Assembly (NCBI GenBank): GCA_945876035.1
Contig: CAMCMU010000021.1
Coordinates: 1-64,000, forward strand
Source: Schlesneria paludicola DSM 18645
GTDB lineage: Bacteria; Planctomycetota; Planctomycetia; Planctomycetales; Planctomycetaceae
Direction: 5' to 3'
Length of the DNA stretch: 64,000 nucleotides
The position numbers and the translations under genes were made by a program. Below the pieces are notes generated by a model that made no database searches, had not been told where the DNA came from, and saw only the letters and a list, made by a program, of their open reading frames with translations. Below are positions 1,538-14,365 of the stretch, piece by piece. Each line of letters begins with the position of its first letter. The first letter of the stretch is position 1.

Positions 1538-2518
1538 ATGGACGACAAAAAGCCTTCCACATCAGACATCCTTGCGAAAATCCGGGCGCAGAAGGCCGCT
1601 GCCGCTGCGGTAACTCCTGCACCAGTGGCAGCTCCTGCACCAGTGGCAGCTCCCGCAGTGACGCCGGCGGCTGCAATTGCTCCGCAGTCCAAGCCTGGTT
1701 CGACAAAAGATATTTTAGCGGCGATTCGTGCCAAGGGTGCCATCCCTGCGGCGGGGCCGTCGGCTCCGGCAGTCGCTGGAGTGTCTGTCCAGTCGGAGGT
1801 CAAAGCCGTTGCCGCGTCCACGAGTCCTCGGCCGTCCGTGCAGGATATGTTGAAGGCCGTACGTGAAGGGCAGGGTGTTCCTTCGTCGGCCAAGCCGACG
1901 GTGGCTGCAACGTCGGCTGGCAAGGTTCCCGTCGTCGCTCCGCCTGTCCCCTCCAAGCCGGTTATGGCTTCCAAAAAAGTGGTTCAACCGCGTCGCGGGT
2001 TCTTGATGAATGCGGTGGTCACGATTTCGTATCCGTTTCTCAGTGCCTTCCGCGTCGCATGGACTTCGATGGCGGCGGTGACTGGGGTCGCTACGCTCGG
2101 GACCGCGCGATTCATGTTTCCCAACGTTCTTGTGGAGCCTCCCTCCAAGTTCAAAGTCGGGCCGATGTCTGATTACCCATTGAATTCGGTGTCGAATAAG
2201 TGGAAAGATCAATACGGTGTCTGGATTGTTCACACCGATCAATACGAAGGGCGTAATCTTGTCTTCGCCCTCGCCTCTGTGTGTACCCATCTCGGCTGCA
2301 CTCCGAGTTGGCTGGATGGCGAGCAAAAGTTTAAGTGCCCCTGTCACGGATCTGGATTTTATATGACGGGCGTCAACTTTGAGGGTCCCGCGCCGCGTCC
2401 GTTAGAGCGAGTTGGTTTAAAGATCGCCGAAGGGATGCTGGAAGTCGATAAAAGCGTGAAATTTCAGGGTGAAATGGGGCAGTGGAATGACGCCGCGTCG
2501 TTTGTTGAGTTGGCGTAA
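1538..2518 (+). CDS. Rieske [2Fe-2S] subunit with long N-terminal extension
   Basis: This 326-residue protein is the Rieske iron-sulfur subunit of a bc-type quinol oxidoreductase. It takes electrons from quinol at the membrane and passes them to a c-type cytochrome. The cluster-binding boxes are CTHLGC (near residue 249) and CPCHGSGF (near residue 267); both Cys-His pairs are intact. A single membrane anchor lies near residues 160-190. Residues 1-150 are unusual: an Ala/Pro-rich cytoplasmic-side extension carrying three spaced copies of a short motif (residues 9-19, 57-67 and 102-112; consensus D-I/M-L-A/K-A/K-I/V-R). An 18-bp tandem duplication at 1614-1649 underlies part of the linker. ATG 1538 is preceded by GGAAG. 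It is the first gene of the respiratory cluster and sits directly upstream of cytochrome b. Confidence 0.93.
   Translation: MDDKKPSTSDILAKIRAQKAAAAAVTPAPVAAPAPVAAPAVTPAAAIAPQSKPGSTKDILAAIRAKGAIPAAGPSAPAVAGVSVQSEVKAVAASTSPRPSVQDMLKAVREGQGVPSSAKPTVAATSAGKVPVVAPPVPSKPVMASKKVVQPRRGFLMNAVVTISYPFLSAFRVAWTSMAAVTGVATLGTARFMFPNVLVEPPSKFKVGPMSDYPLNSVSNKWKDQYGVWIVHTDQYEGRNLVFALASVCTHLGCTPSWLDGEQKFKCPCHGSGFYMTGVNFEGPAPRPLERVGLKIAEGMLEVDKSVKFQGEMGQWNDAASFVELA
1614..1649 (+). repeat. 18-bp tandem duplication inside the Rieske linker
   Basis: Two exact adjacent 18-bp copies (1614-1631 and 1632-1649) encode the repeated peptide TPAPVA/APAPVA in the Ala/Pro linker of the Rieske protein. The reading frame is kept because the unit is a multiple of three. 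Confidence 0.9.
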
Positions 2519-2595
2519 TTTTTTTGGATTCGTTTTGAATTTGGTTGAGAGCCGGTCTGCGCCAGTTTGGCGTTCAGTGGCTTGAGGGATCATCG

Positions 2596-3369
2596 ATGTC
2601 AGTGGGCGACTATATTCGTGGTTCGCAGATTTGGAAAAGTATTTTTCGACATCCGGCGCCCGTTGATCGGCGGAACCGAATTGTTGTGATGCTGACCAAT
2701 TTCTTTTTACATCTGCACCCCGTCTCGATTAAGCAGCAGGGGATTGCGTTGTCCTACACCTGGTGTATGGGTGGGATTACCTTCTTTCTGTTTCTCGTGG
2801 AGACGGTTACGGGTGTTCTGTTGATGTTCTACTACCGTCCGACGCTGGAGTTCGCCTTCAACGACATCTTGGCGCTGCGAGACGTGACAACGTTGGGGAT
2901 TATGCGGGAAATACACCGTTGGGCTGCCCATGCGATGGTGATCACTGTCTGGTTGCATATGTACCGGGTCTTTCTGACAGGAAGCTATAAGCCTCCCCGG
3001 GAGTTCAACTGGGTGATCGGCGTATTACTGCTGGTGTTGACCCTGTTGCTGTCTTTCACGGGGTATCTGTTGCCGTGGGATCAGTTGGCCATCTGGGCGA
3101 TTACCGTCGGCTCCAATATGGCGAGGGCAACACCCGTTCTGGGGTATGAAGGGCCCGGGGCACAATTGCTGAATGTCGGTGGATTCGATCTGATTACCAA
3201 CGGCAGCGATGCGCGATTTTTGCTGTTAGGAAGTCGCTTTGTGAGTGAGGCGACTCTGAATAGATTTTATATTTTGCACTGTGTTGCGATTCCGCTGGTT
3301 GTTTCGCTGCTCATTGCCATTCACTTCTGGCGTGTTCGAAAAGACGGTGGAATCAGTCAGCCTCTGTAG
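2596..3369 (+). CDS. Cytochrome b, N-terminal (b6-like) subunit
   Basis: This 257-residue integral membrane protein corresponds to the four-helix heme-binding half of cytochrome b, as in cytochrome b6. It binds both b hemes and forms part of the quinol sites. Heme ligands are visible as two His pairs: IHRWAAHAMVITVWLH, with 13 residues between the pair, and LHCVAIPLVVSLLIAIH, with 14 residues between the pair, the latter as in b6f-type proteins. The SFTGYLLPWDQ motif of the quinol-oxidation site is present. ATG 2596 has GAGGG about 8 bases upstream and is preferred over an upstream TTG at 2545. It ends 72 bp before the second cytochrome b gene, so the two halves are separate proteins. Confidence 0.93.
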   Translation: MSVGDYIRGSQIWKSIFRHPAPVDRRNRIVVMLTNFFLHLHPVSIKQQGIALSYTWCMGGITFFLFLVETVTGVLLMFYYRPTLEFAFNDILALRDVTTLGIMREIHRWAAHAMVITVWLHMYRVFLTGSYKPPREFNWVIGVLLLVLTLLLSFTGYLLPWDQLAIWAITVGSNMARATPVLGYEGPGAQLLNVGGFDLITNGSDARFLLLGSRFVSEATLNRFYILHCVAIPLVVSLLIAIHFWRVRKDGGISQPL

Positions 3370-3441
3370 TTGTTTTGAGCAGTTGGATGCGTTGCCCGTA
3401 TCCGCTGTCGCGTTCTGTTGAAAATTTGCGGCTCCCGACTC

Positions 3442-4830
3442 ATGCAAACACATTTGCTTCACAATCCTGACTTAACGGAATCCGTAATTTACGGGCTCGG
3501 CTGGGTCTATCTGTTGTTGTTCATCGCGAACTGCGTGTGGGTTCGTCGCAGTTACAAGTTCGATGGTGATTGTCAAATCAAGATGGGCGGCTTGCTCGGC
3601 CGGGGAATTCAGATTCCGACGGCAAGTTTTTGGGCCTTGTACGCTGCCATGCTGCTGATGGTTTCGGTGACTCATCTCACGGGCTCGCACAATCCACAGT
3701 CGTTCCTAATCCGGATGCCGGAACTGTTCAAAGAGCCGATCAATGCCGGATCGAATCCCGTAGCATTTTTTATTGGATCGACCGCACTGTACATCGCCAT
3801 GATTGTTCTGCGGTCGTGGTGGACCACGAACACCGCTGGTTGGGTTCTTCTCAATCTGTCACTGTTGTTCTTAGCGATGAGCATCACCGACTACGATTTT
3901 CGCCAGATCGTCGGCAAGCCCGACAACGTTCCCATTGTAGCCATGCTTTACATTGTCGGATTTTTTACGTGGTTGTATTTCAAGAAATCGGTTGAGAACG
4001 ACAAGCGACGAGCCGAAGGACGGCCCCTGCTGGAGCAGGAAAATAACGAAAAGGTTTTGACGTGGCCGGATCTGGTCTATAGCGAATTGATCTGCATGGT
4101 CGTGGTCACCGCCGTTCTGGTGGCTTGGGGGATTGTCCTGCAGGCGCCACTGGAAGAGCCTGCATCGGCTGCCAAAACACCAAACCCTTCGAAGGCACCT
4201 TGGTACTTTCTTGGATTGCAGGAGATGCTGGTTTATTTCGATCCCTGGATGGCCGGGGTTGTGCTCCCCAGCGTGATTCTCGTCGGACTGATGGCGATTC
4301 CCTATATCGACTTCAACAAGCTGGGAAATGGTTATTATACGTTCAACGAACGCAAGTTCGCGGTCTCCACGTTCCTGTTCGGATTCCTGCCTCTGTGGGT
4401 GGCCATGATCGTTCTGGGAACCTTCCTTCGGGGGCCCAATTGGAACTTCTTCAGCCCCTATGAGTATTGGGACGTTCACAAGCTCGAGTTTTTGAACAAC
4501 GTCAACCTCTCGGAATGGTTTTGGTTGTCGATTATGGGACAACAGTTGCCGGTGGCGCCGGCGGGTTCGACCGCTGCGTACCAGATATGGATGATTGTTG
4601 TGCGGGAGTGGCTGGGATTGCTTGCGACGCTGGCTTATCTATTCGCCTTACCACCGCTGATGGCGGTGACCGTTTTCCGTAAGTTCTTCACAAAAATGGG
4701 TTTTCTGCGATACATGGTGTTAGCAAATTTAATGCTGTTCATGATGTCTCTGCCGATCAAGATGGTTCTCCGCTGGGCGGTGAATCTAAAGTACATTGTG
4801 GCAATTCCGGAGTGGTTTTTTAATATCTAA
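3442..4830 (+). CDS. Cytochrome b C-terminal (subunit IV-like) protein, enlarged
   Basis: This roughly 462-residue polytopic protein has about ten predicted membrane helices. Its second half contains the C-terminal cytochrome b domain. The motif at the position of PEWY reads APWY, within PSKAPWYFLGLQEML, so the usual Glu before Trp-Tyr is replaced by Pro, although a Glu follows six residues later. The N-terminal 200 residues add about five helices that b6f subunit IV does not have. It should pair with the b6-like subunit just upstream to complete the quinol-oxidizing core. I prefer ATG 3442; a TTG at 3418 would add eight residues, and neither has a strong Shine-Dalgarno sequence. The function of the extra helices is unknown. 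Confidence 0.88.
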   Translation: MQTHLLHNPDLTESVIYGLGWVYLLLFIANCVWVRRSYKFDGDCQIKMGGLLGRGIQIPTASFWALYAAMLLMVSVTHLTGSHNPQSFLIRMPELFKEPINAGSNPVAFFIGSTALYIAMIVLRSWWTTNTAGWVLLNLSLLFLAMSITDYDFRQIVGKPDNVPIVAMLYIVGFFTWLYFKKSVENDKRRAEGRPLLEQENNEKVLTWPDLVYSELICMVVVTAVLVAWGIVLQAPLEEPASAAKTPNPSKAPWYFLGLQEMLVYFDPWMAGVVLPSVILVGLMAIPYIDFNKLGNGYYTFNERKFAVSTFLFGFLPLWVAMIVLGTFLRGPNWNFFSPYEYWDVHKLEFLNNVNLSEWFWLSIMGQQLPVAPAGSTAAYQIWMIVVREWLGLLATLAYLFALPPLMAVTVFRKFFTKMGFLRYMVLANLMLFMMSLPIKMVLRWAVNLKYIVAIPEWFFNI

Positions 4831-4973: not shown

Positions 4974-7900
4974 ATGCCGGCGACTGACGATTATCTTCGC
5001 AATCTGAAATTAATGCACCGCGTGTTCTGTGGCAGCGCTGTGTTGTTGCTGGGCACGACCTTGTGGATGATGTGGGCCGACTACGATGATGAGTGGCGGA
5101 CCTATCAACGACAGGCGTTCACTTACCAAGCCGAGAGGCTGAAGGCTCGCGAAAACGCGGTCAGTGCCTCGCCGGATTACAAAGAAAAGGTGAGTGAACT
5201 TGCTCAGCGGATTCAGGCCGCCGATGTGGAACTGGTGAAGCAACACGTCGAAGTCGAGAAGTTGGCCAATCAGGTGAAAGCGGCCGTCGGCAAGACCTCC
5301 AATCACTTGCGGTCTTTAAAAACGGAGCGGGCACGGCGTGATGTCGCCCGCGCGAACTACAACCTCGCCATTCGTGATGAATTGGTGGGTCAGGATCTTG
5401 CCAAGCGGGAACAGGCATACCAAACCATCGAAGCCAGTGTGCAAACGATGGAGGTTCAGTTCGGTGAGTTGAAATTTCAGGAAAATCTCGCCAAGGGGGA
5501 TCTCACCAAGGTGACCGGCGTGCGAGATATGTCTCAGAAAGAACTCAAGGGGGTAGAGACACAATCGGTCCTGATCCACGCCGCGCTCAACAAGATCGAG
5601 CCGGATACGTGGCTCTCGAAGACGAAGCGCCAGATGATGCTCCTGCCGATTATCGACGGTTTCAACTCACCAGAACGGATCACTCAAGATTGGATGCCGA
5701 AGCTGCAGTTTGGTCTCGGTGGCATGGGTACTGTTTCGCGTTTTGACCGGTGTCGAACATGCCATGCGATGATCGATACAGTCGATGATACGGTCAAGAC
5801 TTCGGTGGTGGGTGCTTTTCCACACGGAACAGCACAGGACCGACGCTTTGCCCATCCTTATGCGTCACACCCGCGTCTGGATGTCTACCTCGGAGCGACT
5901 AGCCCGCATCCCCTGCCGAAGTTCGGTTGTACGGTTTGCCACGAGGGGCAGGGATCCGGAACGTCATTTACCAATGCTTCACATACTCCGAATGATCCGA
6001 CGCAGGCCGACGATTGGGCCGAACACCACAAGTGGTCTGACAACCATTTCTGGGAACGTCCCATGGCTCCGACGCGATTTAAAGAGTCCTCTTGCATTAA
6101 ATGCCATGTGAATATCACCGAATTGGCGGTCAACGAAAAATATGGGCCAACCGCTCCGAAAGTGGCCCGTGGACATGATCTGGTCAAGACCTACGGTTGC
6201 TTCGGATGTCATGAAATTCAAGGTTATGAAGGTTCGAAAATCATTGGGCCCGATCTGCGTCTAGAGCCCTCCACTCCGGAAGAGGCTGCGGAGATTGCTA
6301 ACGATCCGACGATGGTCGCTGGAAAAATGCGAAAAGTCGGACCCTCCCTGCGACATCTGGCCTCCAAAGCGGAGGCGGGATTTGTGGCCTCGTGGACAGA
6401 AGAGCCGAAGCGATTTCGCCCGACGACACGAATGCCGCAGTTCTTCAAGCTGGAAAATCAACAGGACGTCCATGGTCAGCAGTACAACCCCGTGGAAATC
6501 GCGGCGATGACTCATTACCTCTTGAGCAAGTCATCAAGTTACGAACAGCTGACTCCGGCAGTGGATTACGTGCCGGATGCGAAACGTGGTCAGGAACTGT
6601 TTGCGACAAAGGGCTGTGTCGCCTGCCATACACACGAAGCCGTTCCTGGTTTGGACGCCGTGTTTGGACCAGAGTTATCAAAAATCCATGCGAAACTGAA
6701 GGCGGGACAGCAGGGCTTCAATTGGTTGTACACCTGGATTCGCGAGCCTGAACGGTATCACCCGCGGACAAAAATGCCTCACTTGTTTCTCGATGCTGAA
6801 GGGACCGGCGAGAAGCGAATCGACCCCGCCGCCGACATCGCTGCGTTCTTGTTGAAACTGGAAGGAGCTCCGGTCGACTTCAAGCCGACGGCCGATTACG
6901 AGACGCCCGTCGTCACCGACCAACTTCTCGACGAACTCGTATCCCATTTTCTGGGAAAATCGCTCACGAAAAGTCAGATTGCTCAGTTTATGGAGTCGGG
7001 TCAGTATCCAATCGCGATCGACAGAATTAAGGGAGATGAAATTGAGTTAGTCGGTCAGAATACGGGGGAATTGAATGCCACCGAATGGAAGAATCGCAAG
7101 CTGACCTATCTTGGACGAAAGTCCATTTCCCGATACGGCTGTAACGGATGCCACGACATTCCGAATTTCGAGCAGGCACGACCGATTGGGACCGCGTTGC
7201 AAGATTGGGGAAAGAAAGACCGTTCCCGTTTGGCGTTTGAACACATACACGAATACTTGAATCACCACGGCCAAGCGGGATTCGGGATCACCGTCTCCAG
7301 CCTCGATGATGCCGCTGCCAAACGGTTGCAAATCGAACATACTTCGGGTGTTCGGGTGACGAATTCAAAAGGCAAGACACTCGTGGTCGATGACGTTGTC
7401 ACCAGTCTTGATGGCGTCGGAGTGACCGACGTCGATCAGTATCATGATCGATTGGATCGGACGATTGTCGGCAGCGATGTGGCAATTGGCATCTTGCGTG
7501 GTGGCCACGATCAAACGGTCACGCAACACGCGGATTCCTCATTGTTGGAGCGCGTCGAACAGGGGATCGGTAGCGCTGAACGCAAAGAATTTTCAGAAGG
7601 TGGCCCAACGGCTGAGCGCGAACTGTCCGCAGCGTTTTATGTGGAAAATCTGCTGCATCACGGACGCCCCGGTTTTCTGTGGCAGAAACTTCGTCAGCCG
7701 CGCAGCTACGACTACAAAATGATTGAGACGAAGCCTTATGATGACCGCCTGAAAATGCCCAAGTTTCCGTTTTCAGAGGATGACATCGACGCCATCGCCA
7801 CGTTTGTGCTGGGCTTGGTCGTCGAGCCGCCTGCCGTGGAATACATGTACAATCCGACCGGAGTGGCGGGTGCGAAAATTCGTGGCGAACAATTGATTGA

Positions 7901-9023
7901 GCAGTTCAATTGCTCTGGTTGTCATGTGTTGGAGCTTCCCACGATTCGCTATGCGGCTGACGTAGACGCGATCACGGCCTCTGACCCGTCCACGGATTAT
8001 CCAGAAGCGGTCGCACTCCTGAAAAAGTTGCGGCCAATGACCGAAGGGACAACCGGAGAGACGAAGGCGATCAAGACCACAGAGGGTCTCAAGACGTTGC
8101 CGATCGTGGAGTTCCATGGGATGATTTCCGGCACCCCGGATCCGGCGGACCCTCCCGAAGATCAAGAGTACGTCGTCGAGTTGTGGGAAAGCTTGAAAGT
8201 TCTGGGCAAAGAGCTGTTTCCCACCTATAAATTCATCTTTCCAGCGGCCAACTTGGACAAGATCGAGCCGGCACGTGGTGGCCGGTACGCGGAGTGGCTT
8301 GTTCAGCGGTTACTGGATCAGAGTGTTGCTAAGGAACGATCGCTGGCGTGGCAAATGGCACCGCCACCACTCGACATGGAAGGGACCAAGGTCCAAACAC
8401 CGTGGCTGTTTAACTTCCTTCGCAATCCTGGAAAAATACGACATACCACGGTGCTGCGGATGCCGCGGTTCAATATGAGTGACGACGAAGCAAAAGCATT
8501 GGCAAACTATTTCGCGGCCGTGGGTAACGCACCATTCCCCTACCAGCTGATTGAGCAGCGAGAACCAGCGTATCTGGATGCAGTCAACAGCGACTTTCAT
8601 AAGGTCTTTCCTGACAAAAAGAACGAGTACCTGACGGAGTCTTGGCAGATGTTGAATGCGCCACTGTGCATCAAGTGCCATTCGGTCGGTGGGCGACAAG
8701 TAACGGTCAGCGATCCCGCCAAGGATATTCGAGGTCCGAATCTCGAGCTCGCGTCGGAGCGACTGAAACCGGATTGGTTGCTGTTGTGGCTCTTCCGACC
8801 CTCGTGGATTACACCCTATACATCGATGCCGTCGCCGCTGCCTCCGCAACAAGCGGGGGGGCAACCACGTTATCCGGAGTTGTTTGACGGAGAGGGATTG
8901 AGGCAGACGGTTTCGTTGCGGGATTCGTTGGTCAACTATTACAAGCTTTTGGAGCGTGAAGTCGGGACGGTCGATGCTCAAAAGTCTGCATCGCGGGTAG
9001 ACGCTGGAAAGGGTCAACAATGA
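4974..9023 (+). CDS. Giant membrane-anchored octaheme cytochrome c with PDZ-like domain
   Basis: The 1349-residue protein starts with a membrane anchor (about residues 14-32), followed by a charged coiled coil (about 45-210). It then carries eight CxxCH heme c sites with first Cys at residues 260, 319, 374, 409, 548, 723, 980 and 1232. Between sites six and seven lies a PDZ-like region (about 765-850; VVDDVVTSLDGVGV followed by VAIGILRGG). The anchor and coiled coil point to a periplasm-facing electron-transfer subunit held on the membrane. It occupies the place in the operon where cytochrome c1 would be expected, between the cytochrome b genes and the oxidase, so it is inferred to accept electrons from the Rieske protein. 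ATG 4974 lies 143 bp after the b subunit, and the stop overlaps the next start by 4 bp, indicating translational coupling. The domain combination is unfamiliar to me. Confidence 0.88.
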   Translation: MPATDDYLRNLKLMHRVFCGSAVLLLGTTLWMMWADYDDEWRTYQRQAFTYQAERLKARENAVSASPDYKEKVSELAQRIQAADVELVKQHVEVEKLANQVKAAVGKTSNHLRSLKTERARRDVARANYNLAIRDELVGQDLAKREQAYQTIEASVQTMEVQFGELKFQENLAKGDLTKVTGVRDMSQKELKGVETQSVLIHAALNKIEPDTWLSKTKRQMMLLPIIDGFNSPERITQDWMPKLQFGLGGMGTVSRFDRCRTCHAMIDTVDDTVKTSVVGAFPHGTAQDRRFAHPYASHPRLDVYLGATSPHPLPKFGCTVCHEGQGSGTSFTNASHTPNDPTQADDWAEHHKWSDNHFWERPMAPTRFKESSCIKCHVNITELAVNEKYGPTAPKVARGHDLVKTYGCFGCHEIQGYEGSKIIGPDLRLEPSTPEEAAEIANDPTMVAGKMRKVGPSLRHLASKAEAGFVASWTEEPKRFRPTTRMPQFFKLENQQDVHGQQYNPVEIAAMTHYLLSKSSSYEQLTPAVDYVPDAKRGQELFATKGCVACHTHEAVPGLDAVFGPELSKIHAKLKAGQQGFNWLYTWIREPERYHPRTKMPHLFLDAEGTGEKRIDPAADIAAFLLKLEGAPVDFKPTADYETPVVTDQLLDELVSHFLGKSLTKSQIAQFMESGQYPIAIDRIKGDEIELVGQNTGELNATEWKNRKLTYLGRKSISRYGCNGCHDIPNFEQARPIGTALQDWGKKDRSRLAFEHIHEYLNHHGQAGFGITVSSLDDAAAKRLQIEHTSGVRVTNSKGKTLVVDDVVTSLDGVGVTDVDQYHDRLDRTIVGSDVAIGILRGGHDQTVTQHADSSLLERVEQGIGSAERKEFSEGGPTAERELSAAFYVENLLHHGRPGFLWQKLRQPRSYDYKMIETKPYDDRLKMPKFPFSEDDIDAIATFVLGLVVEPPAVEYMYNPTGVAGAKIRGEQLIEQFNCSGCHVLELPTIRYAADVDAITASDPSTDYPEAVALLKKLRPMTEGTTGETKAIKTTEGLKTLPIVEFHGMISGTPDPADPPEDQEYVVELWESLKVLGKELFPTYKFIFPAANLDKIEPARGGRYAEWLVQRLLDQSVAKERSLAWQMAPPPLDMEGTKVQTPWLFNFLRNPGKIRHTTVLRMPRFNMSDDEAKALANYFAAVGNAPFPYQLIEQREPAYLDAVNSDFHKVFPDKKNEYLTESWQMLNAPLCIKCHSVGGRQVTVSDPAKDIRGPNLELASERLKPDWLLLWLFRPSWITPYTSMPSPLPPQQAGGQPRYPELFDGEGLRQTVSLRDSLVNYYKLLEREVGTVDAQKSASRVDAGKGQQ

Positions 9024-9895
9024 ACCGACAACGAACGCCCACGTGTCCGATCTTGGGAGCGACGATTGGGTTGTCCCTTCTACTCAGTGCGATCACCGGT
9101 TGCGGTAAATTGACCAGTGGTGCGAATTCGGTAGCGACCGTTAAGTATCGACCAGCTGCTCAAGTCGCGGCTGAGGCGTCTGCCGGCAATGAAACCGCAG
9201 TGAACGCGGAAGCCTCCGAAAACGAAGGTGGCGTCGGAACGCTTCGAGGTCGAGTCGTGTACGTGGGAAACCACATTCCGCTGTCGCCGTGGTTTGCGAA
9301 GGGTGCGGCGGCCAAAGATCCGAGTGTCTGCGGGTTGGAAGAGATCCCGAATGAGTCGATTCTCGTGAAGGATGGTGGGCTAGCCAATACGTTTGTGTAT
9401 CTCGACAAGATTCCCAAAGGAGTCGCCTTTCCGATTCCCACCGAGGCGGTGCTATTTGACCAAAAGGTATGCATCTTCAGTCCCCACGCGATCATCGTCC
9501 GTGTCAAACAAACGATGAAAATTTTGAATGCCGATGGAGCGGCCCATAACACGCACACCTATCCCAAGAAAAACACCGCATTCAACAGTGTGGTTCAGCC
9601 CAACGATCGCACGGGAGTCGATCTGTCTTACACGCAATCGGAAAAGGAACCGCTTTCTGTTGGCTGCGATATTCATCCGTGGATGACGGCTTATCATCTG
9701 CCACTCGATCACCCCTTTGCCGCAGTGTCTGCAGCGGACGGGTCCTTCGAGATCAAGGATTTGCCAGCGGGAAAACACGAGTTTAAAGTTTGGCACGAAG
9801 CAGGCAAGATGGTTGAAAAAGCATTTCAGGTCACCATTAAGCCCGGTGATAACGCGATTACGATCAACGTCCCCGCCAGCAAGTTGGGTCAGTAA
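9020..9895 (+). CDS. Cupredoxin-like lipoprotein (possible type 1 copper protein)
   Basis: This 291-residue protein has a lipoprotein signal ending in ITGC (Cys28), then an Ala/Glu-rich linker. The main domain has plausible type 1 copper ligands: His176 and/or His179 (HNTH) and the C-terminal set Cys216, His219, Met222 in GCDIHPWM. The last 80 residues resemble a carboxypeptidase-regulatory-like beta-sandwich (DGSFEIKDLPAGKHEFKVWHE). It overlaps the octaheme cytochrome gene by 4 bp. Its position among electron carriers suggests a membrane-tethered copper electron carrier, or a partner of the multiheme proteins. That role is inference; the fold and ligand pattern are what can be seen. Confidence 0.8.
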   Translation: MNRQRTPTCPILGATIGLSLLLSAITGCGKLTSGANSVATVKYRPAAQVAAEASAGNETAVNAEASENEGGVGTLRGRVVYVGNHIPLSPWFAKGAAAKDPSVCGLEEIPNESILVKDGGLANTFVYLDKIPKGVAFPIPTEAVLFDQKVCIFSPHAIIVRVKQTMKILNADGAAHNTHTYPKKNTAFNSVVQPNDRTGVDLSYTQSEKEPLSVGCDIHPWMTAYHLPLDHPFAAVSAADGSFEIKDLPAGKHEFKVWHEAGKMVEKAFQVTIKPGDNAITINVPASKLGQ

Positions 9896-9936: not shown

Positions 9937-9962
9937 ATCGAATGGCATAGGTTGTGTGTACG

Positions 9963-11474
9963 ATGTTTCGTCTTAGCTCAATGTCACAAATAGCGAAAAG
10001 CTCCTCCCCACCGGTGGTCTGCGCGGCGTTGATTGTCGTGCTGTGTCTGTTGCCTGGTTGCGGTGTCGGGCCTCAAGCGGAATTTAAATATCGCGACAGC
10101 ACCCACAAGCTGATTGGCGATGCTCAAAAGGCGATGACCAAAACGCTGCAAGAGGGGTTTGGCACTCCTCACGAGCTGGTGGCTTGGGAAAAATTCCCGA
10201 TTGGCTATGGAGGAGCGAAAGGGACGGTTTCTGGAAAACCGGCTGCCGATTCAGCGTCGAGCCAGTTGCTGACCGTGACGTTTGAGGGTGACGCGACGAA
10301 CACCATGGTCGGGGCCCCGTTGTTGTGGTTGACGGGCGCGAGGGCGAGTCAGACATCGGTGGCGGATACCGTGGCCCATTTCGATCCGAAAACCAACCAA
10401 TTGAAATGGTCGGGAATGTCCCTGCCGGCACCGGTGTCAGGTGATAAATTCGTCATCGGATTCGGTGAGCACTTGAAACAGGGTCGTGCGGTTTACATGA
10501 AAAACTGCATGCACTGTCATGGTGTCAGCGGCGACGGTGCGGGCCCCACAGCGGATTACTTGTCTCCTCGTCCCCGCGACTATCGACTCGGCGTTTTTAA
10601 ATTCACCTCGACTCTAGCGGCAGAGAAGATCAGTCGAGACGATCTGCACCGCATTCTGAAGCATGGCATTCCGGGAACCTACATGCCGTCATTTCTGTTG
10701 CTCGGGGAAAAAGAGACAAGATCGGTGATCGAGTATGTTCGTTGGTTGGCTGTCCGTGGGGAATTCGAAAAACGGACGGACGATGATCTGGCCGAATTTT
10801 CGGTGGATGCACTGGAAGATACCGTCAAGAAAGCCGCGGCCACCTATGACGCAGCCAAGAAATCCGGAGAGACGCCTGCGAAAGGGATGACACTTGGCCA
10901 AGCGATGAAAGAGGCTCGTGAATCGTTTGCCAAGTTTCAGAGTGATGAACTCGCTGGCGCGATCGAGGACACGGCCACATTTTTGGCCGACGCATGGACT
11001 CGAGCTGATGCTGATGAGAGCGTGATCCTCCCGACGGTGTCGCGGGTCGTGGATGAGGCGACCTCCCGTGAACGTGGCCGCTTGCTCTTTATGTCGGATA
11101 AGACCAAGTGCTATACCTGTCATGGCATGCTTGGCAAAGGTGATGGATTGGCAACAGAAGACTTTTGGAAGAAGCCCGGCTCCGAACTCATGTATTCGCG
11201 CCGCGGTCTTCACGATGCTTGGGGAAATCCGTTGCGACCCCGCAACTTGACTCTGGGCCAATACCGCGGTGGTCGGCGACCGGTGGACCTGTTCCGGCGA
11301 ATTTATGCGGGAATCAAAGGGACGCCGATGCCCGGTTTTGGAAAGACGGCTTTAAAAGACGAAGAAATCTGGGACGTTGTCAACTTTGTCATGAGTCTTC
11401 AATTTCAGTCGACACAGCCGCCAAACACTGGCAGTGGCCAGATGGCCGCTGCCGAGACGAAGCACTCGAAATAA
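9963..11474 (+). CDS. Diheme cytochrome c lipoprotein
   Basis: This protein of about 503 residues has a lipoprotein signal ending LLPGC (Cys33) and two cytochrome c domains with CMHCHG (Cys182) and CYTCHG (Cys383). The two domains are separated by a roughly 120-residue mostly helical spacer rich in Lys, Asp and Ala. A possible distal Met is in GTYMPSFLLL in the first domain and GTPMPGFGK in the second. It is anchored to the periplasmic side of a membrane and lies directly before cytochrome oxidase subunit II, so it is a good candidate for the immediate electron donor to CuA. ATG 9963 is chosen; a GTG at 9954 would add three residues. No strong ribosome site is visible for either. Confidence 0.87.
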   Translation: MFRLSSMSQIAKSSSPPVVCAALIVVLCLLPGCGVGPQAEFKYRDSTHKLIGDAQKAMTKTLQEGFGTPHELVAWEKFPIGYGGAKGTVSGKPAADSASSQLLTVTFEGDATNTMVGAPLLWLTGARASQTSVADTVAHFDPKTNQLKWSGMSLPAPVSGDKFVIGFGEHLKQGRAVYMKNCMHCHGVSGDGAGPTADYLSPRPRDYRLGVFKFTSTLAAEKISRDDLHRILKHGIPGTYMPSFLLLGEKETRSVIEYVRWLAVRGEFEKRTDDDLAEFSVDALEDTVKKAAATYDAAKKSGETPAKGMTLGQAMKEARESFAKFQSDELAGAIEDTATFLADAWTRADADESVILPTVSRVVDEATSRERGRLLFMSDKTKCYTCHGMLGKGDGLATEDFWKKPGSELMYSRRGLHDAWGNPLRPRNLTLGQYRGGRRPVDLFRRIYAGIKGTPMPGFGKTALKDEEIWDVVNFVMSLQFQSTQPPNTGSGQMAAAETKHSK

Positions 11475-11627
11475 CAGTTGGCAAAAAAGTAGAACACGTG
11501 ACCGTTCGGGCTTGCTGGTTGAAAGACTGGTGACGGTGTGTGTTCATCAGCGTCCCGAGGAGTTCAAAAGTTTCGACAGAGTATTGAATGGCAGCAATAG
11601 GCTTGCTTTCAGGTGAAGGTAAATTCC

Positions 11628-12443
11628 GTGGGAAAGTTTTGGTCGGTATTTTTTATGTTAACGGCCGTTATTGCGGTGGCCGTGTCCTGGCTGTCCGCCG
11701 GATGGGGATGGTGGTTTCCCGGTGATGGATACGCACATTCCACCATCGGGAAGCGGATTGATGCCCTGTTCTATATGATCATGGCCATCGTGACGTTGAC
11801 GTTTATTGTGACTCAGGCTGTCTTGGGTTATGTCTTGTGGCGGGGGGCAACCATCAAGCCCGAAGATAAGGTTCTGTTCTCCCACGGCAGCCATGGCTTG
11901 GAAGTGATTTGGACGATTGTGCCTTCCGCCGTTTTACTGTTCATTGCTCTGATCCAGATGGATGTCTGGGCTCAGTTCCGAATCAAGGGGTCGATCAAGG
12001 ATCAGCACGGAAATCTGGTCAAACCCGAACCGATTGCGGAATTGACCGCAAGGCAATTCGAGTGGCGAATTCGCTACCCGGCCAACGGAAAACCGTTGAA
12101 TCCAAAGCCGCAACCCGACGACATCTACTCGGTCAACGAATTGCACGTTCCGTCGGGTCGACCGGTTGAGGTCACTCTGCGAACGGACGATGTGCAGCAT
12201 GCGTTCTTCGTCCCCGAATTGAGAATCAAGCAGGACGCGGTCGCCAGTCTGAAGATTCCCGTGTGGTTCGATGCTCTCGAAAACCGTGATTATGAGATGC
12301 TGTGCGCCGAATTATGTGGGTGGGGCCATTATAAAATGAAGGCAAAACTCGTGGCACAGCCCGACATCGAATTTGAAGCTTGGAAAGAGCGAACGTCGGT
12401 CGAACAGTTCGAAGATGGTTTTCGAAAACCGGCGGATCAATAA
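11628..12443 (+). CDS. coxB: Cytochrome c oxidase subunit II (CuA)
   Basis: This subunit accepts electrons at its periplasmic CuA site and passes them to heme a in subunit I. Two membrane hairpin helices are seen near the N-terminus (FFMLTAVIAVAVSWL and MIMAIVTLTFIVTQAVLGYVLW). The CuA ligands are all present: His in HAFFVPEL and the motif CAELCGWGHYKM. No heme c domain is fused to the C-terminus, unlike caa3 oxidases, which fits the separate cytochrome c upstream. GTG 11628 has GGTGAAGG about 8 bases upstream and is preferred over GTG 11613, which lies inside that sequence. It is followed by subunit I after 89 bp. Confidence 0.92.
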   Translation: MGKFWSVFFMLTAVIAVAVSWLSAGWGWWFPGDGYAHSTIGKRIDALFYMIMAIVTLTFIVTQAVLGYVLWRGATIKPEDKVLFSHGSHGLEVIWTIVPSAVLLFIALIQMDVWAQFRIKGSIKDQHGNLVKPEPIAELTARQFEWRIRYPANGKPLNPKPQPDDIYSVNELHVPSGRPVEVTLRTDDVQHAFFVPELRIKQDAVASLKIPVWFDALENRDYEMLCAELCGWGHYKMKAKLVAQPDIEFEAWKERTSVEQFEDGFRKPADQ

Positions 12444-12532
12444 GCCATCGTGGGTATGACTTGAGTTTCGACATCAGGCCTTTTGTTGGGGCCATGTTGC
12501 CGCAGACGGCATTGCTGAGAGACGAGCGAATC

Positions 12533-14365
12533 ATGAGCACTCTAAATCCCGTTATCGAACATCCTGCTGACCTAGGTCATGCGGCACACGTCCATGCGGG
12601 GGCACATGGCCATGTGCCGCATCAGCAGAGCTTTATCTCGAAGTATGTTTTTTCCACAGATCACAAGATGATCGGGATGCAGTTTCTCTGCACCACTTTG
12701 GTGACTTTGATGATCGGTGGCGCGCTGGCTCTTGGAGTCCGGTGGCAACTGGCTCGACCGTGGGAGTATATGCCAATCCTTGGCGATCTCGGCTTTAAGA
12801 CCGATGGTGGTCAGATTTCGCCAGAAACGTACACCATGCTGTTTACGATGCATGCCACGGTGATGATTTTCCTTGTGATCATTCCCATTTTGGCGGGTGC
12901 CTTCGGAAACTTCTTGATTCCGCTGCAGATTGGCGCGGATGACATGGCCTTTCCGGTGCTGAACATGCTGAGCTATTGGTTCATGTGGCCGGCCATCTTT
13001 TTTTTCGGACTCAGCTTCTTTTATGGGGGTGGCCCCGCTTCGGGGTGGACGGGTTATCCCCTGCTCTCGGTGCTGCCTCAAGCGGCGCCTGGTTCGGGCC
13101 ACGCGCAAACCTGCTGGTTGTTGGGGGTGACGTTTGTGGGAGTCTCGTCCATGATGGGTTCGGTGAACTACATGACGACGATCATCAACATGCGCGCTCC
13201 AGGAATGACGTTGTTCCGGATGCCGCTGACCATTTGGTCGATGTTTATCACCGCGATCCTGCAGGCGTTTGCGTTGCCCGTACTGACGGCCGCTGGCTTT
13301 ATGATGATGACCGACCGAATTCTGGGCACATGTTTTTTCGTTCCCGCTGGAATCGTTGTGAACAATGCGGCTCCCACCATCGGTGGAGGACAGCCGCTAC
13401 TTTGGCAGCATCTGTTCTGGTTCTATTCTCATCCGGCGGTGTACATCATGCTCCTGCCAGCGATGGGAATGGTTTCTGACATGCTGGCCTGCATGTGTCG
13501 CAAACCGGTCTTCGGATACAAGCCGATGGTGTACTCGATGGCAGCAATTGCGGGACTCGGTTTTATCGTCTGGGGGCATCACATGTTCATCAGTGGAATG
13601 AATCCCGCACTGGGCATGACTTTCATGGTCAGCACCGTCCTGATTGCCTTGCCGTCAGCGGTGAAGACCTTCAATTGGATTGGAACGATTTGGGGGGGGC
13701 GAGTACAGTTCAATACGGTAATGTTGAACTGCACGGCGTTTGTCTCAATGTTCATCATTGGTGGATTGAGCGGCATTTTTATGGCTGCCGTCCCCGTCGA
13801 CATCTATATCCACGACACCTACTTCATTGTCGCTCACTTTCACTACGTGATTTTCGGAGCGACCTTGTTTGGTGTCTTCGGAGCGATTCAGTTCTGGTTT
13901 CCAAAGATGTGGGGCCGGATGATGAATGAGACGGTCGGAAAGATTCACTTCGTGCTGACCTTTATCGGATTTAATTGCACATTCTATCCGATGCACATGT
14001 TGGGGATTGCGGGGATGCCTCGCCGATACGCGGACCCATACCACTTTGCCTATTTGGAGCATTTGCTTCCTTTAAATCAATTCATGACAGCCGCTGCGAT
14101 GCTGATGGGATTTGCGCAGTTTCTTCTGCTCGGTAATTTTGTGTACAGCATTTTCTTCGGCCCCAAGTGCGGGCGCAATCCGTGGAATGCCAATGGCCTC
14201 GAATGGTCGGCACCATCCCCCCCGGGGCACGGGAACTTCGACATTCCTCCCATTGTTTATCACGGGCCTTACGAGTACAGCTCGCCGATCAGCGGTGGCA
14301 AAGATTTTCTGATGCAAACCGAGTATGTGCCGCTCGCTCAGCGCGTGGCCAATGTCGGCCATTGA
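12533..14365 (+). CDS. coxA: Cytochrome c oxidase subunit I (A2-type)
   Basis: This 610-residue protein is the catalytic heme-copper oxidase subunit that reduces oxygen and pumps protons. It shows about twelve helices with the heme a ligand near FTMHATVMIFL, the CuB/Tyr block FWFYSHPAVYIMLLPAMGM, and HDTYFIVAHFHYVIFG, which carries the distal heme ligands. YSHP in place of the GHPE motif marks an A2-type oxidase, which uses the Tyr-Ser pair instead of the D-channel Glu. The N-terminus is His-rich (HAAHVHAGAHGHVPHQQ), a possible metal-binding tail. ATG 12533 is chosen over an upstream start at 12380, which would overlap coxB. The heme A synthase gene follows 40 bp later. Confidence 0.95.
   Translation: MSTLNPVIEHPADLGHAAHVHAGAHGHVPHQQSFISKYVFSTDHKMIGMQFLCTTLVTLMIGGALALGVRWQLARPWEYMPILGDLGFKTDGGQISPETYTMLFTMHATVMIFLVIIPILAGAFGNFLIPLQIGADDMAFPVLNMLSYWFMWPAIFFFGLSFFYGGGPASGWTGYPLLSVLPQAAPGSGHAQTCWLLGVTFVGVSSMMGSVNYMTTIINMRAPGMTLFRMPLTIWSMFITAILQAFALPVLTAAGFMMMTDRILGTCFFVPAGIVVNNAAPTIGGGQPLLWQHLFWFYSHPAVYIMLLPAMGMVSDMLACMCRKPVFGYKPMVYSMAAIAGLGFIVWGHHMFISGMNPALGMTFMVSTVLIALPSAVKTFNWIGTIWGGRVQFNTVMLNCTAFVSMFIIGGLSGIFMAAVPVDIYIHDTYFIVAHFHYVIFGATLFGVFGAIQFWFPKMWGRMMNETVGKIHFVLTFIGFNCTFYPMHMLGIAGMPRRYADPYHFAYLEHLLPLNQFMTAAAMLMGFAQFLLLGNFVYSIFFGPKCGRNPWNANGLEWSAPSPPGHGNFDIPPIVYHGPYEYSSPISGGKDFLMQTEYVPLAQRVANVGH

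Follow-up and report, generated by a model that had tools for sequence, protein, structure and literature searches.

A giant octaheme cytochrome that appears to replace the usual complex III cytochrome subunit in many planctomycetes carries a predicted PDZ domain at one of three sites in different lineages

Gene content of the locus

A 64,000-nucleotide stretch from Schlesneria paludicola DSM 18645 (assembly GCA_945876035.1, contig CAMCMU010000021.1, positions 1 to 64,000; hereafter the window) was analysed around an open reading frame (ORF) with an ATG start at 4974..9023 (+), which encodes a 1349-residue c-type cytochrome with eight CxxCH sites and a predicted PDZ domain. The gene order is Rieske protein, cytochrome b, subunit-IV-like protein, octaheme, cupredoxin candidate, diheme cytochrome c, CoxB, and CoxA (Table 1). 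An earlier reading made from the letters alone (the sequence-only reading) had proposed that the octaheme takes the place of cytochrome c1, and the gene order agrees with it: within the Rieske/cytochrome b operon, the octaheme stands where c1 or f would be expected. No c1 or f family matched the octaheme in Pfam (up to E 1) or NCBIfam (up to E 0.01). In alternative complex III, molybdopterin-like and NrfD-like subunits replace Rieske and cytochrome b; no such families were found among the eight operon proteins scanned, and both the Rieske protein and cytochrome b are present. The nearest named relatives are mostly Schlesneria metagenome-assembled genomes (MAGs). The real start of CoxA is probably downstream of the listed one.

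Table 1. Features of the operon and of the octaheme cytochrome in the window; ligands of hemes 1–3, 4, 7, and 8 are inferred
Feature	Position	Strand	Basis or remark
Rieske protein	1538..2518	+	Pfam Rieske
b6-like cytochrome b	2545..3369	+	Pfam Cytochrome_B
Subunit-IV-like protein	3418..4830	+	Pfam Cytochrom_B_C; NCBIfam cytb6_f_IV below cut-off
Octaheme cytochrome c gene, 1349 residues	4974..9023	+	
Membrane anchor, residues 17–35	5022..5078	+	Kyte–Doolittle
N-terminal Pro-poor stretch, residues 40–215	5091..5618	+	weak coiled-coil periodicity at about 67–116
Hemes 1–3, residues 256–380	5739..6113	+	probably bis-His; His299, 312, 337, 358
Heme 1–2 PDZ site of relatives, residues 285–287	5826..5834	+	no PDZ in the window protein
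Heme 4 domain, residues 400–490	6171..6443	+	Met487 probable ligand
Heme 5 domain, residues 536–629	6579..6860	+	Met601 probable ligand; Pfam Cytochrom_C
Heme 5–6 PDZ site of relatives, residue 638	6885..6887	+	no PDZ in the window protein
Heme 6 domain, residues 720–935	7131..7778	+	CxxCH 723 and Met928; split by PDZ
HtrA-type PDZ domain, residues 768–854	7275..7535	+	
Heme 7 domain, residues 977–1170	7902..8483	+	Met1163 probable ligand
Heme 8 domain, residues 1229–1292	8658..8849	+	Met1285 probable ligand
Cupredoxin candidate	9020..9895	+	CxxHxxM motif; no Pfam family above cut-off
Diheme cytochrome c	9954..11474	+	
CoxB	11613..12443	+	CuA motif
CoxA	12380..14365	+	listed TTG start overlaps CoxB

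The octaheme cytochrome

The CxxCH sites are located at residues 260, 319, 374, 409, 548, 723, 980, and 1232, exactly as listed in the sequence-only reading. All eight were kept in 34 of 36 aligned relatives; the other two (loci L026 and L027) were without heme 8 only, and longer copies of those genes (L088, L045) include it. The single membrane anchor claimed earlier was borne out by one strong hydrophobic segment starting at residue 17 (19-residue Kyte–Doolittle mean 1.66; runner-up 1.41 at 937–938). The coiled coil proposed for the helical N-terminal stretch was partly supported: the 3.5-residue periodicity averaged over the alignment of the 36 relatives showed a weak peak from residue 70 (matched in 26 of 1000 shuffles), while the single sequence showed none over residues 40–215 (1045 of 2000 shuffles), some over 60–130 (53 of 2000), and little over 130–200 (153 of 2000).

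Hemes 1–3 probably form one bis-His module, and each of the other five hemes a His/Met domain of its own. His299, 312, 337, and 358 around hemes 1–3 were invariant in the 36 relatives, as were Met487, 601, and 928, and Met1163 and 1285 were found in 94%; each of these five methionines precedes a proline and lies after CxxCH 4, 5, 6, 7, and 8, respectively. His765 (7266–7268) and His896 (7659–7661), located one on each side of the PDZ domain in HHG motifs, were also invariant and are surplus to the proposed ligand set.

PDZ domain in the window protein

Profiles and structure predictions agree that residues 768–854, approximately, are a genuine HtrA-type PDZ domain, lying between CxxCH 723 and Met928 and thus within the heme-6 domain; the PDZ-like segment reported earlier between hemes 6 and 7 is thereby upheld. 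Pfam PDZ_2 matched residues 771–850 with E 1e-4 and 23 bits, below its cut-off of 27, and reached 27.0 bits when the genome was searched; NCBIfam degP_htrA_DO matched 768–854 (E 1.7e-5, 24 bits; the cut-off of this full-length model is 416). All 10 relatives whose corresponding segment was scanned passed the PDZ_2 cut-off. AlphaFold2 prediction of residues 757–880 with eight relatives gave a PDZ fold (predicted local distance difference test, pLDDT, 75.5; predicted template modelling score, pTM, 0.66). When the model was compared with the PDB by Foldseek, the best 20 of 50 matches were all HtrA, DegP, DegQ, or Deg1 chains (probability 1.00, best E 3.1e-6). The same strand–helix order recurred in a 1135-residue model (pLDDT 62.2, pTM 0.39), for which the best Foldseek matches were again HtrA PDZ domains. 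The likeness to HtrA/Deg proteases is confined to PDZ sequence and predicted fold: the octaheme has no protease domain, and its PDZ helix following the third strand is shortened. Elsewhere in the large model, residues 1026–1098 (8049–8267), which follow heme 7 and precede its probable Met ligand, formed a strand-rich segment with no family match in the Pfam scan.

Distribution of the octaheme and its relation to described systems

The octaheme family profile matched 154 of 297 sampled genomes of the window's class (E up to 1e-60). Among 392 sampled Planctomycetota genomes, it matched 125 (E up to 1e-30), 106 outside the class and 19 inside. Each of the 20 loci fetched from outside the class contained an ORF with eight CxxCH sites matching the octaheme model, and 18 of them also contained one or more of Rieske, cytochrome b, and subunit IV; at L185 and L188, the octaheme stood alone in the DNA analysed. 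We further compared 108 full-length octaheme relatives, a set made of best matches and of loci picked to cover families and thus not a random sample: a Rieske protein was present in 86 of their loci, subunit IV in 101, and a CoxB relative in 70. Of the 20 loci fetched from outside the class, just 4 had a CoxB relative. Many planctomycetes appear to use a giant octaheme instead of the usual complex III cytochrome subunit, and the octaheme of Kuenenia is found throughout Planctomycetota, frequently with a gene for an aa3-type oxidase nearby.

One of the loci, L184, contains a Rieske protein, cytochrome b, a 566-residue NAD(P)/FAD/4Fe-4S oxidoreductase, subunit IV, and a 948-residue octaheme. A hidden Markov model built from the 36-row alignment of the window's family matched this octaheme with E 1.2e-115. 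The 2025 description of Kuenenia-type complexes names Ser114 and Phe116 of Kustd1480, His62, Arg266, and Lys267 of Kustd1481, and Arg550 of Kustd1483 (PMC12954380). All six residues are found in L184 at identical numbering; L184 is therefore the Kuenenia stuttgartiensis Kustd1480–1485 operon or a near copy of it. By profile similarity, the window octaheme is a homologue of Kustd1485. According to the same paper, a hexa- or octaheme cytochrome replaces cytochrome f in these complexes, Rieske/cytochrome b complexes are dimers, and long helices of Kustd1485 wrap around the complex and the Rieske protein; the word PDZ is absent from the main text (PMC12954380). Both operons encode a Rieske protein, a b6-like cytochrome b, a subunit IV, and an N-terminally anchored octaheme. 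Unlike the window protein, the Kuenenia-type octaheme is 948 residues long and has no PDZ match, and its operon adds the NAD(P) oxidoreductase, whereas the window operon has cupredoxin, diheme, and aa3 oxidase genes. The octaheme itself is thus an already described kind of protein, and the PDZ domain is what is new. Two MAGs filed as Candidatus Kuenenia stuttgartiensis (L039, L040) contain a Planctomycetia-type octaheme that groups with Planctomycetaceae-type rows, unlike L184, and their titles look wrong.

The statement in the sequence-only reading that no respiratory subunit with this architecture had been described holds only in part. Kuenenia octahemes replacing cytochrome f are described (PMC12954380), and HtrA-type PDZ domains together with c-type hemes occur in the magnetochrome proteins MamP and MamE (PMC3971196). 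No description of a PDZ domain in a complex III cytochrome turned up among the results listed for the open-licence literature, where the combinations "PDZ domain" with "multiheme cytochrome" and PDZ with Rieske, heme, and multiheme also returned nothing. A known octaheme and a known domain make up a repeatedly gained combination that we found described nowhere. MamP and MamE differ in that they usually have two small magnetochrome domains, are magnetosome iron proteins, and are encoded outside Rieske/cytochrome b operons. The Pfam scan gave no magnetochrome match in the octaheme; on visual inspection, the minimal PHx5-9CxxCH pattern given in PMC3971196 was matched by heme 2 only. In NCBIfam, cytochrome b scored highest with ExtP (258.9 bits), subunit IV with ExtQ (57.2 bits), and the octaheme with ExtS (38 bits), all three being Ext operon families and all scores lying below the curated cut-offs (290, 150, and 100, respectively).

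PDZ domains at three sites among relatives

The 108 relatives were obtained from 111 ORFs of more than 1000 residues by removing three with seven CxxCH sites (L026, L027, L151), all reaching the edge of the analysed DNA. A PDZ domain was scored as absent when none of three models, built from the three insert groups, matched at E < 0.01. On this basis, it was located between hemes 6 and 7 in 17 relatives, between hemes 5 and 6 in 16, and between hemes 1 and 2 in 19; it was undetected in 56, and no relative had it at two sites. The PDZ domain is a lineage-specific insert, with PDZ domains at two other sites elsewhere, which the sequence-only reading had overlooked. Pfam PDZ families, partly under cut-off, matched 8 of 10 long heme 5–6 inserts (exceptions L045 and L103) and 14 of 16 heme 1–2 segments (exceptions L117 and L144). 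The heme 5–6 inserts follow residue 638 (window numbering) in 16 of 16 cases, and some PDZ-free rows (L157–L159) have long unexplained heme 1–2 inserts. A motif resembling a carboxylate-binding loop was present in 16 of 17 PDZs at the 6–7 site, 16 of 16 at 5–6, and 18 of 19 at 1–2, as counted with a loose pattern and no chance control; the match in L100 looks spurious.

The three groups have different holders. Fourteen of the 17 PDZs at the 6–7 site belong to the window's genus, two to a second genus of the same family, and one to a named MAG; at 5–6, nine other genera of the family account for 14 of 16 and two named MAGs for the rest; at 1–2, 13 other families account for 17 of 19, again with two named MAGs. 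A core tree was built with FastTree after sparse columns, and hence the inserts, were excluded; long rows L145 and L147 were joined and flagged. The 6–7 group formed one clade (support 100). On this tree, the 5–6 label required three changes, the 1–2 label two, and all four states together at least six; PDZ domains were therefore gained repeatedly or moved.

Inserts of other kinds were also noted. The sister lineage of the 6–7 clade (L131, L133, L134) carries a similarly sized insert at the 6–7 site, with weak Rotamase_2 (PPIC-type) matches, below the cut-off, in two of the three rows. Long heme 7–8 inserts occur in several lineages (L043/L143, L023/L131, L045, L115, L089, L122) and match no Pfam family above cut-off.

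Origin of the PDZ domains and selection

On a tree of PDZ sequences, weakly resolved with 4 starred branches of 68, the 6–7 group formed one clade (87) adjoining PDZ1 of the HtrA protease of its own genome (81) and separate from the 5–6 and 1–2 groups. The 6–7 PDZ model scored the own-genome HtrA (59.3 bits) above all 5–6 PDZs (maximum 46.6), which favours independent capture. The 5–6 model runs against it, as some 6–7 PDZs (maximum 47.0) scored above all own-genome PDZs (maximum 33.1). The model scores are thus mixed. Overall, independent capture is favoured; less probably, a single ancestral PDZ may have shifted within the gene between 5–6 and 6–7.

Selection was estimated in 13 close pairs, all at least 80% identical (12 from the 6–7 group, one from 5–6, and none from 1–2), which share branches. 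The ratio of non-synonymous to synonymous differences (pN/pS) was used because synonymous sites were saturated in several pairs. It ranged from 0.04 to 0.36 in the PDZ domain and from 0.04 to 0.13 in the core. The PDZ domain is under purifying selection, less strict than that on the heme core.

Possible role of the octaheme and its PDZ domain

It has long been asked how respiratory complexes locate one another and their carriers. We infer the heme ligands, the electron path, and the docking role as follows. The octaheme would serve as the c-type cytochrome in a b6f-like complex III, made up with Rieske and cytochrome b, that feeds the aa3-type oxidase encoded downstream. The Rieske protein would hand an electron to one octaheme heme, and the eight hemes, three probably bis-His and five probably His/Met, would conduct it along the periplasmic face to the cupredoxin candidate or the diheme cytochrome and onward to CuA; this path is proposed because of the gene order and known complex III chemistry. 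The ancestor shared by the window's genus and a near relative would have captured an HtrA-type PDZ, which came to lie in a surface loop of the heme-6 domain; other lineages have PDZs in two other loops. Standing outside electron transfer, the PDZ would most likely hold a partner peptide (from the oxidase module, a mobile carrier, or an assembly or envelope factor) beside the hemes. This reading, with the octaheme linking Rieske to the cupredoxin/diheme/aa3 branch and the PDZ as a docking module, is put forward tentatively, its chances being a little short of even. It is favoured by the order and families of the operon genes, the conserved probable heme ligands, the Kustd1485-type homology, the sequence and predicted fold of the PDZ, its three alternative sites with at least six state changes, the low pN/pS, and the carboxylate-loop-like motif. 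The presence of a PDZ at three places hints at a repeated need for a docking site in the complex.

Several results weigh against it. The large model (pLDDT 62.2, pTM 0.39) is too poor for placing the PDZ or for judging how near one another the three sites lie. No PDZ was detected in 56 of the 108 relatives, and the PDZ evolves faster than the core, with a higher non-synonymous rate in 12 of 13 pairs. The sequence-only reading had also proposed docking to the C-terminal tail of an operon subunit. The C-termini of seven operon proteins were compared between PDZ-bearing loci (13–19 per group) and PDZ-free loci (26–55, by protein), and none of the seven gained a hydrophobic or PDZ-ligand-like tail alongside the 6–7 or 5–6 PDZ. 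The tails of Rieske and subunit IV were hydrophobic regardless of PDZ presence, and the cupredoxin tails ran in the opposite direction, with a hydrophobic last residue in 0 of 16 (6–7) and 1 of 15 (5–6) loci vs. 26 of 52 without PDZ. In the 1–2 group, the last residue was hydrophobic in 6 of 19 diheme cytochromes vs. 0 of 28 without PDZ and in 3 of 16 CoxB proteins vs. 0 of 26; we did not count this excess as support because these loci represent other families and have dissimilar tails, but it is the only result leaning towards tail docking and at most a faintly positive one. Binding of an operon subunit's tail thus found no consistent support so far.

The PDZ gained several times in one respiratory subunit can be regarded as a natural experiment, which reflects either a recurring need for docking or the tolerance of a redox wire for inserts. 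In the latter case, the PDZ would be a tolerated or merely stabilising surface insert with no binding role, in a scaffold several of whose loops take up inserts. In line with this, long inserts of no clear family also occur between hemes 4–5 and 7–8, the sister lineage has a different 6–7 insert, at best Rotamase_2-like, and the PDZ evolves faster than the core; against it stand the recurrence of one domain type at three sites and the purifying selection, and we regard it as unlikely. The PDZ could also serve self-association: MamP-like PDZ–PDZ contacts would pair two octahemes of a dimeric complex, and no foreign ligand would be involved. MamP forms a PDZ/c-heme dimer mainly through PDZ contacts (PMC3971196), and its structure (4jj0) came 42nd among the Foldseek matches of the large model; Rieske/cytochrome b complexes are likewise described as dimeric (PMC12954380). 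However, all three insertion sites would need to reach the two-fold axis, which leaves self-association rather unlikely. A role in biogenesis, in which the PDZ engages periplasmic quality-control or assembly factors during folding and heme loading, would suit the position of the 6–7 PDZs next to PDZ1 of the own-genome HtrA protease (support 81) and the weak peptidyl-prolyl isomerase (PPIase)-like matches at the 6–7 site of the sister lineage (E 1e-3, 0.03, and none, all under cut-off). However, the analysis turned up no connection to an assembly factor, and the PDZ tree has few starred branches (4 of 68); we consider such a role very improbable.

The docking reading can be carried further: planctomycete complex III may be a modular docking platform, in which a PDZ was grafted repeatedly, one at a time, into different octaheme loops and tethers an identical or equivalent partner (an oxidase, a carrier, or an assembly factor) whose gene lies elsewhere. 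We hold this to be somewhat doubtful; if true, it would be a route of building supercomplexes without known description.

Additional observations

The N-terminus of the Rieske protein (1538–2030) has an Ala/Pro-rich extension ahead of the membrane helix with three copies of an S-x-x-D-I-L-A-x-I-R-like motif, and resembles a series of short linear motifs. The motif was found in Rieske relatives from 73 of 86 loci, as searched with a loose pattern and no chance control; the number of copies was 0 in 13 loci, 1 in 5, 2 in 18, 3 in 25, 4 in 14, and 5 in 11. The source genome also has a second Rieske/cytochrome b pair (contig C3, L052, 244–2965), in which cytochrome b is fused to a part with two CxxCH sites; this pair resembles the Kuste3096–3097 type mentioned in PMC12954380.

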